Source: Bacteroidales bacterium (GTDB lineage: Bacteria; Bacteroidota; Bacteroidia; Bacteroidales; VadinHA17). Taken from it: a stretch of 64,000 bases of DNA. The notes beneath the pieces are model-generated. The model searched no databases. It worked only from the letters and a program-made list of their open reading frames with translations, and was not told where the DNA came from. The DNA lies in assembly GCA_021157415.1 (NCBI GenBank), contig JAGGWN010000072.1, forward strand, positions 1 through 64,000. The letters are read 5' to 3'. A program made the translations under genes and the position numbers. This document shows positions 47,385 through 53,701 of this stretch, one piece after another. Numbering within the stretch: position 1 is the stretch's first letter; the number at the start of each line of letters is the position of its first letter.

Positions 47385-50081
47385 TTATTGCTTTGAGTTT
47401 TTTCCGTTTAGTAATATTTCATCGGTAAAGATCCAGGCTTTGCCGCCGGCACTTTTATGCCAGGACGGCAAGGTTCCGGTATTTTTAGCATGAATCCGGA
47501 TAAACCGGATGTTTTTCCGGTGTATGGCAAATGAGAAAGGTTGTATCCAGGTACCGGTTTTTTGCCAGTCTATTCTGTTTTCCATTTTTTGTTCCTCCGA
47601 AAAGGAGTTCCCGTCTTCCGAGACAACACAGCTCACCCATTCAGGAAAAAGAATCCATGATTGCACATTCTGCAGGAAAGTGACGGTAACCGTATCAAGA
47701 TCCATGGCTTTCTTCAACCGGAGATCAGCGATCAGGTCTGTGCCTTCCAATCCCAGCCAATGTCCGTCACGGTAGTTTTTCGATCCCCGTATGCTGTCAA
47801 CCAGGCTGATCATGCCCCGGGCTGGGTATTTTTCAGAAAAGGGATATTTAAGTTTGATTTCAACTACCGGGCCGTGATAAACCCGGACCATCTTCTCAAA
47901 TACAGGATTTCCGCATTTACCGTCGTAAACCGTTGCTCTGATTCTGGTGGTATGATCCACCATAAAAGGTTCTTTATACAAGGTGGAGGAAGTATCGGGA
48001 GGAGTTCCGTCCAGGGTATAATAGATGTTATCCGCAAAAAAACTCCGGAGAGTGACTTTACGTTCCGGGGCGAAGAAGGAAGTATCTGTTTCAATGAAGA
48101 CATAACAGGGAACTTCTTTCAGGTCTTTTTCCATCCGGTCAAACTTCGCGAGGATATGATCCAGCCACCACGGCCGGTTTTCCATATTCCACAATCTTGC
48201 ATAGTCTTTCTTCATAACGGCCAGCTGGTTCTCCAGCCCCTTCAGGTTCCTTTGCAAATCAGCCTTTCTGACGTGTGTCATTTCCAGGGGATCGTTCAGC
48301 CGGTATTTGAGTTCATTTTTTCTGGCCATATACTGCGCTCTCCGGGTGGCATAGATAAGATAATCAAGATCATTCCGGTGAAAGGGAATTTTCCGCCGGG
48401 CAGACAGAAAAGCTCTTAACAATACGGAAGATTCTTTTTCCAGTCCCATGGCATCGGACAAGAGATCAACCATTTGAATCTTCGGGTTCGGTTCGATCAT
48501 AGGGCTCCAGAAAGCCTTGTCGGTGAGATGACCTGCAGAAACATACTTTTTCAGTCCGTCCAGATGGAGCATATCATTCGCGATACCGGCATCCGTACCA
48601 TAGTAAAGCGGGTCAAAGGCCCTTGTAAATGATTGAAACCTCAGGTTCATCAGAGAGTCGTTTTCTTCACGTACCGGTTTCCAGGCACATGCCACACCCC
48701 AGGAGAGAGGGAACCAGTTGTACGAGAAAAAGTTCTCTCCATCGTCGTCCCAGGTAGTGTTCATCATCCCCAGGGCACTCATATTCACGCCGTCTCTGAC
48801 AAAATGAGAGATATTCACCTCGGCCGTGGACAGGTCAGGAAAAATGCGGTTCCAGCAACTTACCCCCGGACAGACCCAAAAATTCATGCCTGCCTTTTGG
48901 AAGGGTTCAATCATAAATTTAAAAGAAGGAGCAGACTGATAAGCCCAGGGCAGAACAACCACATCATCCGGTAATTTAGAGATGATCTCCGGATAATCGG
49001 CGGCAATATCCCCCCACATCAGGATGATTTTGTGGAAGGGTTTCAGGATCTGCACAAGTTTATTAATATGATAAGCATATACCCCGGCAAGTCCCATGGT
49101 GTCCACCATTGTTTTGGCAGGTCCGCTGCCCAGGCCAAATACTTCGTCACAGTTGATCATAAAAAACCTGCTGTCGTAGGCAGAAGCGATTTCGCGCAGG
49201 ATGTCTCCCAACAGATCATAGGACTCCGGGAAAGCGGGAGAAATCACGGAAGGAGTCTCAGCCAGATGAGCATAATAAGGTTTTTGGAGGATCTTCCCGA
49301 AATGACCGAAAGCCTGAAAGTTTCCCACCAAATCAATATGGTATTTCCGGGCATAGGCAGACAGTTCTTTTACCTGAGCAGCCGTAATGCCATCCGGAGG
49401 AGCGATACCGGGGTGAGATTTCAGTTTGAAAACATTTTCGGTATAAAGGGTAAAAATATTCATTTTAAAATATGACATCCTGCGTATCTCCGCTTTTAAA
49501 AACTCCATAGTCGGAATAGGTCCGCGGCTTATATCATCCTGCCAGCCGCGGTATCTCAGTGCAGGCCAGTCGGTAATATCCAGTGCCGGAATCCGGTTTT
49601 CCATCCGATTGCCCCGAACCAGTTGGCGCAATGTTTGTACCCCGTAAAAGATCCCGGTATCATTGTTGGCAACCAGGATAAGACGATCCTGGTCTATGTG
49701 CAGGACATAACCTTCTTTTCCACACTGCCCTAGTTTCCGGAGATAGGGTTCTGCAATCTTATCAAACTTTTTATCCTGTCCGGGATACCCTACCAAAAGA
49801 GATGCTTTCTTAATCGTTTGCCCGTAGTTCATATCAAAACCCAGATCCTGCTTAACCTCCCGGAAGAATTCATTTACGTCAAACAACAAGGCAGTATCGT
49901 CCGGGTTCACGATATAAACAAGTTTCTCCGGTGTAAGAGTAAATGTTGCATCATTCCTGTTGAGTATTTGCGGTTGCGGAATAAGATACAGTTGTGTTCG
50001 GTTTGTCTGGGCATACCCAAACGTAACTGCACATAACTCAAACATAATCAAGATAATAAACGATGTGAAAAATCGTCTCAT
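47385..50081 (-). CDS. Exported GH20-like glycoside hydrolase (beta-hexosaminidase family)
   Basis: An 898-residue exported protein. After a signal peptide (MRRFFTSFIILIMFELCAVTFGYAQ) comes the GH20b-like domain (LYLIPQPQIL…GYVLHIDQDRLILVANNDTGIFYGVQTLRQL) and a TIM-barrel (LRYRGWQDDISRGPIPTMEFLKAEIRRMSYFKMN). The acidic pair is NCDEVFGLG (D312-E313), but the usual GH20 HxGGDE is not conserved in the same form. A chitobiase-type segment (YYTLDGTPPDTSSTLYKEPFMVDHTTRIRATVYDG) and a carbohydrate-binding module follow. Likely substrate is N-acetylhexosamine glycans, but activity is inferred. Confidence 0.78.
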   Translation of the reverse strand: MRRFFTSFIILIMFELCAVTFGYAQTNRTQLYLIPQPQILNRNDATFTLTPEKLVYIVNPDDTALLFDVNEFFREVKQDLGFDMNYGQTIKKASLLVGYPGQDKKFDKIAEPYLRKLGQCGKEGYVLHIDQDRLILVANNDTGIFYGVQTLRQLVRGNRMENRIPALDITDWPALRYRGWQDDISRGPIPTMEFLKAEIRRMSYFKMNIFTLYTENVFKLKSHPGIAPPDGITAAQVKELSAYARKYHIDLVGNFQAFGHFGKILQKPYYAHLAETPSVISPAFPESYDLLGDILREIASAYDSRFFMINCDEVFGLGSGPAKTMVDTMGLAGVYAYHINKLVQILKPFHKIILMWGDIAADYPEIISKLPDDVVVLPWAYQSAPSFKFMIEPFQKAGMNFWVCPGVSCWNRIFPDLSTAEVNISHFVRDGVNMSALGMMNTTWDDDGENFFSYNWFPLSWGVACAWKPVREENDSLMNLRFQSFTRAFDPLYYGTDAGIANDMLHLDGLKKYVSAGHLTDKAFWSPMIEPNPKIQMVDLLSDAMGLEKESSVLLRAFLSARRKIPFHRNDLDYLIYATRRAQYMARKNELKYRLNDPLEMTHVRKADLQRNLKGLENQLAVMKKDYARLWNMENRPWWLDHILAKFDRMEKDLKEVPCYVFIETDTSFFAPERKVTLRSFFADNIYYTLDGTPPDTSSTLYKEPFMVDHTTRIRATVYDGKCGNPVFEKMVRVYHGPVVEIKLKYPFSEKYPARGMISLVDSIRGSKNYRDGHWLGLEGTDLIADLRLKKAMDLDTVTVTFLQNVQSWILFPEWVSCVVSEDGNSFSEEQKMENRIDWQKTGTWIQPFSFAIHRKNIRFIRIHAKNTGTLPSWHKSAGGKAWIFTDEILLNGKNSKQ

Positions 50082-50146
50082 GATACCATACGTTTATTTA
50101 TTTCAAAACTATATAAATTTTCATGTAAATATACACAGTCTGATTG

Positions 50147-50300
50147 AAAAAAACCTAAGCCGGCTTTCACCAAATAAGGTTCCCCTGCCTCTCCGTATCG
50201 GCAGGTACTGAATCAAAGTCACACGGGCGGGACCGTCCGAACGAAATCAACCGGAGAGCACGTCTCCGGGAAATTCATTGGATTAAAGCAAATCTTTTTC
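50147..50300 (-). ncRNA. Candidate structured RNA or leader upstream of the GH20-like gene
   Basis: Read on the minus strand, a segment ending CAATGAATTTCCC can pair over long range with GGGGAACCTTATTTGG, and the adjoining TTTGCTTT with AAAGCC. Inside are hairpins CCGGAGA-CGTGC-TCTCCGG (7 bp) and CCTGCC…GGCAGG (6 bp), plus ACGG…CCGT. The 3' end is followed by seven T. It resembles no class I can name; the B12-box-like phrase CAGTACCTGCC is in the wrong order for a cobalamin riboswitch. It is in the 515-base gap 50082-50596, which contains no gene. Confidence 0.35.
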
Positions 50301-50523
50301 CAGAGGCAAATTACAAAATTCCTACTCAAAAATGTTAAAAAAACACCCGGAAAGGATTTTTTTTCCTTAAAGCTGTAATATGATTGTCTGATAATTCAGA
50401 AAAGATAATATATCTTTATGACCGGAGCCATTGTCTGGTTGTTCAGTACATTTTCTATGAAATAAATATAAATTTTCAGCATCCGAAATATGCCAACCGG
50501 GGATGATTAGATTTTTTGTGAAA

Positions 50524-50549
50524 ACCAGATTTACCGGAGCGGTTCTGGT
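50524..50549 (+). repeat. Two-part hairpin in the GH31 leader
   Basis: ACCAG-ATTT-ACCG-GAG-CGGT-T-CTGGT: nested arms ACCG/CGGT and ACCAG/CTGGT, 48 bases before the GH31 start. A regulatory operator or leader hairpin is possible. An AT-rich palindrome (ATATTTTTAAAATAT) lies just after it. Confidence 0.45.
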
Positions 50550-50596
50550 GCATATATTTTTAAAATATAGTCTATTCAATATAAAATCTACAAAGA

Positions 50597-53500
50597 ATGA
50601 AAAAAAACTTCCTTATTTTTCTGGCACTGGTCATGCCCATGGTTTCTTTCGGGCAACAGGAAAAAAAAGTATTCTGGTCTGAAGATTTTTCCGGGGGAAA
50701 ACTGCCGGAGGGTTGGACTGTAAAAAGTTTAGGTGACAGCACGGTTTTATGGCATTGCACCGACCAGCCCTATCCCGGCTCACATCAATACAACAGGCAG
50801 GCACCGCCCATTGCGTCGGACAGCAGAGGTCATTTCATGCTTTTCAGTCCGGGCGTTAAAGTGGATAAGAACATCAATAAATGGAGAGATGCAAAGGTTT
50901 ATCCGGATGGTTATTTTACGACATCAGCCATCAACTGTACCGCTCTGAAGTCGGCCATACTGCGTTTTCAGCAAAAATTCTGTTACATTCCGTGGGGCCG
51001 GGCAAAGGGGGCCGGTTTGTATGTGGGCATCAGCAGCAATGGAAAAGACTGGAAAGACTACCCCGTCCACCATGGGGTAAAAGGATGGAAAGACAGTCCC
51101 AATCCGATGACGACCGAACTGAATGTTTCTGATCTGGTGGCCGGAGAGCCAAAGGTATATATCCGGTTTTTGTGGAAAGGATTTTTTGCTTTCTACTGGA
51201 TGGTGGATGACATCGCGCTGCTGGAAGGCTATAAACATGACCTGGGCGTCAAAGCATTGGTATCCCCGGCACCCCTGGACAACGTGTTCACGAAACAGGA
51301 CACCATCAGGGTACTTGTAAAAAATATGGGATCGGAAGATATTTTGAGGAATTACAAAGCTACCTGTTATCTTGACGGTAAAGAGATCATGACCCTGCTC
51401 GCCAAAGGGGAAGATCAACCTTTGAAAACCAATACTACGACGGAGTTAGATTTCTATCCTGTTGATTTATCACAAAAAGCCTCCTGGGACATTAAAATTA
51501 AAACAGACCTTCCGGGGGATGAAGACACTACCAACAATACGGCTGTTTTCACGGTATATTCCAAACCGGTCATGCTCGGGAAAATTACCAGCATGGCAAA
51601 AAACAAAGACGGCAGTTTTCTTTTCAGCAGTCATGAAGCCCAGGTAAAAGTTTCTTTTCTCACTACGGATATTTTCCGTATTCAACTGGCCCCGCTGGGC
51701 AAGTTTGACGATCCCACCCATGGTAAGATCGTGGTGCCACAGGATCATCCGCCGGTAAAGGTAATTCTCAAAGACGAAGGGGAATCCTATGCCATGGAAA
51801 CAAACGACATCATTGTGCGGGCCTATAAGGATCCTTTACGTTTCGGGCTGTATGACAAAGGCACGGATTTGCCCGTCTGGGAAGAAATACGACCTCTCAC
51901 CTACGGAGCTTCTACGGTACAGACTCTGTCGCGCAAGGACCGTGAATACTTTTACGGCGGTGGCATGCAGAACGGTTATTTTTCACATCGTGACAGTACC
52001 ATACGCATAGAAATCGGTGGCGGATGGAATGACGGAGGGCGCTCCAACCCGGCGCCTTTTTATCTGAGCACGGCCGGTTACGGAGCTTTTCGCAACACCT
52101 TCAAACCCGGTGTTTACAGCTTTCACGATCCGGTAACTCTAACACACAATGAATTCCGTTTTGATTGTTATTATTTCTATGGTCCTTCCCTGAAGAAGAT
52201 ACTGAATGAATACACCTCGGTCACGGGTCGTCCTTTTATGCCCCCCCGCTGGGGTCTGGAGATCGGCGATGCCAACTGTTACAACCGCAAGGGGGTCACT
52301 ACGCCGGTCGTTATCGACTCGGTAGCACGCAAATACCGGTCCCACGATATGCCCGGGGGATGGATCCTGCCCAACGACGGGTATGGCTGTGGTTATACCG
52401 ACCTGGATTCCACGGTACGCGAATTACATAAACTCGGTTTTTACACCGGTTTGTGGACGGAAAACGGGGTGGACCGGATTGCCTGGGAAGTAGGCACTGC
52501 CGGCACGCGCCTGTGCAAACTGGATGTAGCCTGGGTATACCGGGGATATGAATTTGCACTGGATGCCTGTAAGACTGCCTATCAAGGGATTGAAGACAAC
52601 TGCGACGGTCGGGGATATATCTGGTCGGTAATGGGTTGGGCCGGAACGCAACGTTATTCCACCATTTGGTCTGGCGACCAGGTGGGTAACTGGGAATATA
52701 TACGGTTTCATATTCCAACGGTCATCGGAGCGGGTCTCTCAGGATTCAATGCAGCCACCGGGGATGTGGATGGTATTTTCGGAGGTAGCGCCAAAACGTA
52801 TGTACGTGATCTGGAATGGAAATGCTTCACGCCGGTATTGATGAATATGTCGGGCTGGGCCAAGTATATGAAACAACCATACATCCATGGAGAACCCTAT
52901 ACCTCCTATAACCGGAAATACCTGAAACTTAAGATGCGCCTTACTCCTTACATCTACACTTATTGTCATAAAGCTTATGAGACGGGGATGCCTACGGTCA
53001 GGGCTATGGTGCTGGAATTTCCCGATGACCCTGTCACCTGGGGAAAAGAAACCCGGTATCAATTTATGTCGGGAAAATGGTTGCTGGTAGCCCCGGTTTA
53101 TAAAGATGAAGAAAAACGGGACAGCATATATCTGCCCGGAGGCACATGGATCGATTATTGGGACGGTACCCGGTATTGGGGTCCCAGTTGGCTGAATAAT
53201 TATCAGGCCCCTATGGACAAACTGCCTCTTTTTGTCAGGAGCGGAGCCATCATCCCGATGTATCCGGAAATGCTGTATGACAATCAAAAACCCAAAGACC
53301 CCGTCACGTTGGATATCTATCCGGAAGGCCATAGTAAATTCGTTTTGTATGAAGATGACGGAACAACACGCGAATACCAAAAGGGGGAATTTGCAAAGAC
53401 ACTTATACAGTCTGATGTGGATGAAAATACCGGCATTCTGCATATTTCCTTATACGGTAACAGGGGAACATATGACGGCATGCCCGTATCCAGAAAATAC

Positions 53501-53701
53501 ATACTTCAAATCCATATGGAAAAAGCCCCAAAAAAAATCACACTGGATAGTAGAAAACTGAAGGATCTGAAAAACGTCAAAAGATTTGAAAGAAATACGG
53601 AAGGATGGTTTTTTGATCCGACTGATCGAAAAGGAATTATTTTTATAAAAACGATGCCAATCAGTTTGGAAAAAGGATTCAAGATCGAAGTGGCAGAGTA
53701 A
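50597..53701 (+). CDS. Multidomain exported GH31 glycosidase
   Basis: A 1034-residue exported glycosidase. Signal peptide KKNFLIFLALVMPMVSFGQ; residues ~25-210 look like a lectin-type jelly-roll (FWSEDFSGGKLPEGWTV … GRAKGAGLYVGISSNGKDWKDYP); ~215-320 a CARDB-like Ig domain; ~330-540 the GH31 N-terminal sandwich (YFYGGGMQNGYFSHRD); ~548-860 the barrel (RPFMPPRWGLEIGDANCYNRKG, candidate nucleophile D643 in CKLDVAWVYRGY, acid D694 in TIWSGDQVGNW); and C-terminal sandwiches (FVRSGAIIPMYPEM). The nucleophile context is unlike the common WxDMNE. It probably acts on alpha-linked glucose or xylose. A stand-alone plus-strand gene. Confidence 0.9.
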   Translation: MKKNFLIFLALVMPMVSFGQQEKKVFWSEDFSGGKLPEGWTVKSLGDSTVLWHCTDQPYPGSHQYNRQAPPIASDSRGHFMLFSPGVKVDKNINKWRDAKVYPDGYFTTSAINCTALKSAILRFQQKFCYIPWGRAKGAGLYVGISSNGKDWKDYPVHHGVKGWKDSPNPMTTELNVSDLVAGEPKVYIRFLWKGFFAFYWMVDDIALLEGYKHDLGVKALVSPAPLDNVFTKQDTIRVLVKNMGSEDILRNYKATCYLDGKEIMTLLAKGEDQPLKTNTTTELDFYPVDLSQKASWDIKIKTDLPGDEDTTNNTAVFTVYSKPVMLGKITSMAKNKDGSFLFSSHEAQVKVSFLTTDIFRIQLAPLGKFDDPTHGKIVVPQDHPPVKVILKDEGESYAMETNDIIVRAYKDPLRFGLYDKGTDLPVWEEIRPLTYGASTVQTLSRKDREYFYGGGMQNGYFSHRDSTIRIEIGGGWNDGGRSNPAPFYLSTAGYGAFRNTFKPGVYSFHDPVTLTHNEFRFDCYYFYGPSLKKILNEYTSVTGRPFMPPRWGLEIGDANCYNRKGVTTPVVIDSVARKYRSHDMPGGWILPNDGYGCGYTDLDSTVRELHKLGFYTGLWTENGVDRIAWEVGTAGTRLCKLDVAWVYRGYEFALDACKTAYQGIEDNCDGRGYIWSVMGWAGTQRYSTIWSGDQVGNWEYIRFHIPTVIGAGLSGFNAATGDVDGIFGGSAKTYVRDLEWKCFTPVLMNMSGWAKYMKQPYIHGEPYTSYNRKYLKLKMRLTPYIYTYCHKAYETGMPTVRAMVLEFPDDPVTWGKETRYQFMSGKWLLVAPVYKDEEKRDSIYLPGGTWIDYWDGTRYWGPSWLNNYQAPMDKLPLFVRSGAIIPMYPEMLYDNQKPKDPVTLDIYPEGHSKFVLYEDDGTTREYQKGEFAKTLIQSDVDENTGILHISLYGNRGTYDGMPVSRKYILQIHMEKAPKKITLDSRKLKDLKNVKRFERNTEGWFFDPTDRKGIIFIKTMPISLEKGFKIEVAE

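Follow-up and report, generated by a model that had tools for sequence, protein, structure and literature searches.

A candidate structured RNA upstream of a GH20-like gene is very probably a degenerate copy of a mosaic repeat in a Bacteroidales genus

The element that lies upstream of a GH20-like gene on the minus strand of a Bacteroidales MAG (own genome, G000) is very probably a degenerate MITE/BIME/BOX-like mosaic repeat copy without conserved RNA function. We studied it in a window of 64,000 nucleotides, the whole stretch of DNA analysed, and in the sister genomes G002 (WFSC01), G003 (JANTHB01), and G006 (DRPN01/HyVt-56). Copies of the repeat family, which belongs to one Bacteroidales genus, are built from two fixed AT-rich ends that enclose interchangeable GC-rich palindromic modules in varying number. 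An earlier note had offered three readings of the element: a mobile repeat, a small RNA, or an attenuator leader. The first was borne out by an independent profile match, some 50 family matches in a single sister species, and patchy presence at the orthologous site; the other two were not.

As the earlier note had stated, the element is located in a 515-base gap without genes (50082-50596). This gap separates a GH20-like beta-hexosaminidase gene on the minus strand, downstream of the element (47385..50081; Pfam Glyco_hydro_20b, E 4.5e-19, and Glyco_hydro_20, E 2.1e-8), from a divergent GH31 glycosidase gene on the plus strand (50597..53701) with Pfam Glyco_hydro_31 domains. Read along the minus strand, a promoter-like block (50345-50306) is followed by the element (50287-50147), a conserved 72-base flank, and the GH20 ATG. 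The block contained TAATTTGC, with a box of the Bacteroidota -7 type, and aligned with G003 and the element-free G002; its sequence points to a promoter role. The flank, which extends on the minus strand from the T-run as far as the GH20 ATG (50082-50153), was 94% identical to G006 and 87% identical to G003, and was well kept in G003 although the GC core is missing there. Its identity to G006 exceeded that of the GH20 gene itself (91%). The flank is a candidate proximal promoter and 5' UTR of GH20, and with its TATATTTAC and TAGTTTTG boxes it is probably the promoter of this gene. A scan for sigma-70 promoters, a poor test for promoters of Bacteroidota, gave no sites on the minus strand and a plus-strand count similar to that of shuffles.

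A DNA search of 60 relatives returned one orthologue of the element and many partial, repeated matches in the sister genomes G003 and G004. Both ends of the family are fixed (left, TTTAATC[ACT]AAAGAATTCCYCGGG; right, GGGGATCGTTCGTTTTAAGAAATTTCTTTATT), and between them lie zero to several exchangeable GC-rich modules. The GC-rich palindromic module was about 28 bp in length (CCCGCCCGGATGAA.CCGTTCGGACGGG), in some cases with a longer hairpin module after it. Searches of the genus by pattern identified 12 sites of the left end and 19 of the right, compared to none in the reversed controls. The left-end pattern TTTAATCNNANNAATTYCYCGG was found at further sites in G003 (9), G006 (1), and elsewhere in the own genome (1), with none in the reversed-pattern control, and the module pattern, at no more than 3 mismatches, was found in G003 (14), G004 (17), the own genome (7), and G006 (3), with a single occurrence in all reversed controls together. 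Complete copies measured 52-230 bp and held 0-2 GC modules, with the extra hairpin module in some; 9 of the 11 complete copies checked overlapped no ORF of at least 150 aa. For a covariance profile (R1), we used 13 copies, all from G003 or G002; the window copy was left out. At E <= 0.1, most matches of R1 in the genus lay in G003 (52, or about 50 once a few that are the two strands of one copy are allowed for); G002 had 5, G006 had 4, the own genome had 3, and G004 had 1. Outside the genus, R1 had a match at E <= 0.001 in 1 of 110 family genomes, and this match reads as a genuine copy.

Head-to-tail arrays of GC-rich modules at 26-28 bp spacing were seen in G004 (C90, C110, and C38; L039, L038, and L132), some of them framed by TGAATG-type short repeats; the modules therefore exist outside the family ends too. 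At an orthologous insertion (G000:C115:100645, L049, versus G006:C11:4256, L048), the left parts aligned and the right modules differed, which suggests module exchange in place. A second dispersed family, with 17-18 matches each in the own genome and G006, starts with TTTAATCCGCCAAAAGGCGGAC, often preceded in G006 by ATGAAACGAACATGAATTTT (e.g. L147, L158, L164, and G000:C51:46581-46727); at G000:C120 (L161) it has a short, fully palindromic form.

When the 64 kb window was searched with R1, the top match was 50287-50212 on the minus strand (34.1 bits, E 9e-4), with the runner-up at E 1.4. The recognisable repeat part (50212..50287) comprises the left end and one GC-rich module. The left terminal motif TTTAATCCAATGAATTTCCCGGA (50265..50287, minus strand) fits TTTAATC..A..AATTYCYCGG, and the module adjoining this end, CGTTCGGACGGTCCCGCCCGT (50223..50243, minus strand), has 2 mismatches to the module pattern; modules of this type stand in tandem at 26-28 bp spacing in G004 and are repeated in G003. 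In a search of the complete own genome, the window copy was marginal (E 0.048), so membership does not rest on that score alone. It is also backed by the left-end motif, the GC module, and the agreement of the G006 orthologue with the R1 match, this orthologue itself matching R1 (E 0.015 in that search). The window copy resembles the family over its left 76 bases only, and its right part (50154-50212) is common to G006 alone. The right terminal motif GGGGATCGTTCGTTTTAAGAAATTT was not recognisable in the window and aligned weakly in the G006 orthologue. As for the T-run being flank or element, TTTTTC was retained in G003, yet R1 could be aligned over the T-run in G006.

Alignment of the sequences upstream of GH20 showed the element to be patchily present. 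It was found in G006, where the upstream part differed. In G003, both flanks were retained and the element was reduced to remnants, one of which, a TTTCCTCAAAAAATTCTCCGG piece, looked left-end-like by eye and was not reported by R1. G002 had a promoter-like block near the ATG and no element. Most simply, the element would have been inserted after the split from G002, with loss in G002 as the alternative, and the state of G003 might be a deletion scar rather than an older state. The identity of the element to G006 was 72% over 50213-50287 (with many gaps) and 74% over 50154-50212, compared to 84% at third codon positions (GH20, first 900 bases) and the 94% of the flank. Judged by these identities, the element changes faster than third codon positions and gives no sign of constraint. 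This pattern is that of an unconstrained decaying repeat, unlike that of a conserved leader RNA.

These comparisons bear directly on an attenuator or riboswitch-like leader, in which an RNA from the upstream promoter would fold, end at the T-run, and control read-through into GH20. The element does lie in sense orientation between the conserved promoter-like block and GH20, and in the own genome it carries a terminator-shaped hairpin (50151-50182) followed by the seven T on the minus strand (50147-50153) that the earlier note had pointed out. However, the folding energy of this hairpin was -11.2 kcal/mol in the own genome, -5.5 kcal/mol in G006, and -4.4 kcal/mol in G003; it is not conserved, being lost in both orthologues that retain the flank. 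Given also the rapid change of the element, its absence from G002, whose GH20 retains the promoter-like block near the ATG, the lack of covariation and of an Rfam family, and a candidate second promoter after the T-run, we regard such a leader as highly improbable.

Both GC-rich inner hairpins described previously were present. The first, a perfect 7-bp hairpin (CCGGAGA-CGTGC-TCTCCGG; 50251..50269, minus strand), overlaps the left end; when the element was shuffled with its dinucleotides preserved, a perfect 7-bp GC-rich stem arose in 1.3% of cases, and in the G006 orthologue both partners were present and pairing for only 2 of the 7 pairs. The second, CCTGCC(GATACGGAGA)GGCAGG (50184..50205, minus strand), is a module common only to the G006 orthologue. 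Three perfect 6-bp GC-rich stems were observed in the element, compared to 0.14 expected from dinucleotide shuffles; the GC-rich hairpins thus exceed chance. The hairpins, the T-run, and the gap were therefore sound landmarks, whereas the long-range closing stem of about 20 bases per arm claimed alongside them was rejected. Its arms paired at -9.4 kcal/mol, a level matched by 19% of shuffled arm pairs and, across the window, by 36% of all positions of the same geometry, and the helix was not formed in the minimum-energy fold of the element. The folding energy of the whole element was ordinary (z -0.77 for 50147-50300; for 50140-50305, z -0.67 on the minus strand and -1.06 on the plus strand). 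Of the 35 base pairs in the predicted fold, 22 could form in G006, and only 1 change was compensatory.

The search with Rfam covariance models, a check that the earlier note had proposed, left the window without a match at gathering score and gave nothing relevant in the gap up to E 10. The CAGTACCTGCC string at about 50200-50210 had reminded the earlier reader of part of a B12 box; the element, like the rest of the gap, matched no cobalamin riboswitch model even at E 10, and the resemblance was set aside. An independent small RNA gene on the minus strand (50300-50147) would draw on the promoter-like box upstream and the terminator shape. Its sequence, however, is unconstrained, patchily present, and without an Rfam match. 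With pairs that lack compensatory maintenance, fast change, and a terminator hairpin lost in both orthologues, a small RNA is scarcely credible.

A mobile palindromic repeat could also have been co-opted and now tune GH20 expression. There are precedents for some BOX and BIME copies (PMC3049150; PMC4596501), and the position of the element between the promoter-like block and GH20 would suit such a role. However, the window copy shows no constraint, and G003 lost nearly all of the element while keeping the flank, leaving co-option with a very slim chance. It is likewise very unlikely that the modules form a system in this uncultured Bacteroidales genus in which interchangeable hairpins are exchanged from locus to locus and alter the leaders of neighbouring glycoside-hydrolase genes, with module number tuning expression between species.

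We further considered how a decayed repeat of this family may have moved in the past. Y1 (RAYT-type) transposases were found in 5 of 7 genomes, but a family end lay within about 1.5 kb at only 1 of the 16 Y1 transposase loci. GTAG or CGTC tags were absent from the family ends. A RAYT-mobilised REP was rejected on these two grounds, the other 15 loci having no family ends nearby. By eye, the family ends AATCAAAGAATT and AATTTCTTTATT were imperfectly inverted, a feature not evident in the window copy. Since the ends are imperfectly inverted, our best guess is that the family is a MITE, which some transposase would have mobilised. Inspection by eye of the flanks of 12 complete copies revealed no consistent target-site duplication. 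One Y1 transposase gene, at G000:C78 (L097), had two in-frame stops and adjoined a reverse-transcriptase/maturase-like sequence, which was also seen by eye at G006:C99 (L096).

Complete copies combine two unlike fixed ends with middle modules that vary in number, as in BOX-like and BrickBuilt-like repeats. BrickBuilt, a MITE of Porphyromonas gingivalis, has a 23 nt module, a leader and tail of up to 285-318 nt, and about 20 copies per genome (PMC4596501). Both it and the present family are intergenic repeats of Bacteroidales in which short tandem modules, varying in number, stand between an unlike leader and tail; both include copies without ends and are host-restricted (PMC4596501). Compared by description rather than by sequence, they differ in that the module here is about 28 nt, GC-rich, and palindromic instead of 23 nt, the leader and tail of BrickBuilt are much longer, and leader-to-tail versions without modules occur here but not in BrickBuilt. 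The BOX elements of Streptococcus likewise have two fixed end modules (boxA and boxC) that enclose zero to several copies of a middle one (boxB), and are interspersed, predicted to form stem-loops, and without coding capacity (PMC3049150). They belong to another phylum and have module sequences of their own, and the family described here is known from sequence alone. REP/BIME and GTAG/CGTC-tagged repeats (PMC3733652) are also palindromic intergenic mosaics, and Y1 (RAYT-type) genes exist in the genus, but the present family differs from them in its untagged ends and in the scarcity of these ends near Y1 loci. The element is of an ordinary kind. The family itself was not found in the open-licence papers searched and seems to be previously undescribed, with sequences that appear peculiar to the genus.

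Together, our results are consistent with a repeat copy that was inserted between the upstream promoter block and GH20, most likely in the lineage of G000, G003, and G006, and that has since decayed, its RNA fold being under no apparent selection. Its hairpins would have been inherited from palindromic modules. To judge from conservation, expression of GH20 most likely depends on the block immediately before its start codon (50082-50153), so the element is probably near neutral and most likely does nothing specific now. Co-transcription from the upstream promoter would make it a passive structured 5' leader.

The dissection of this locus removed one false structured-RNA candidate, and provides a recipe for such removal, in which sister genomes supply the repeat copies for a profile and third codon positions serve for comparison. 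Repeats of this kind can mimic riboswitches or terminators in intergenic scans. For marine and vent Bacteroidales, the analysis adds an apparently unreported family of modular palindromic repeats, which parallels BrickBuilt and BOX.
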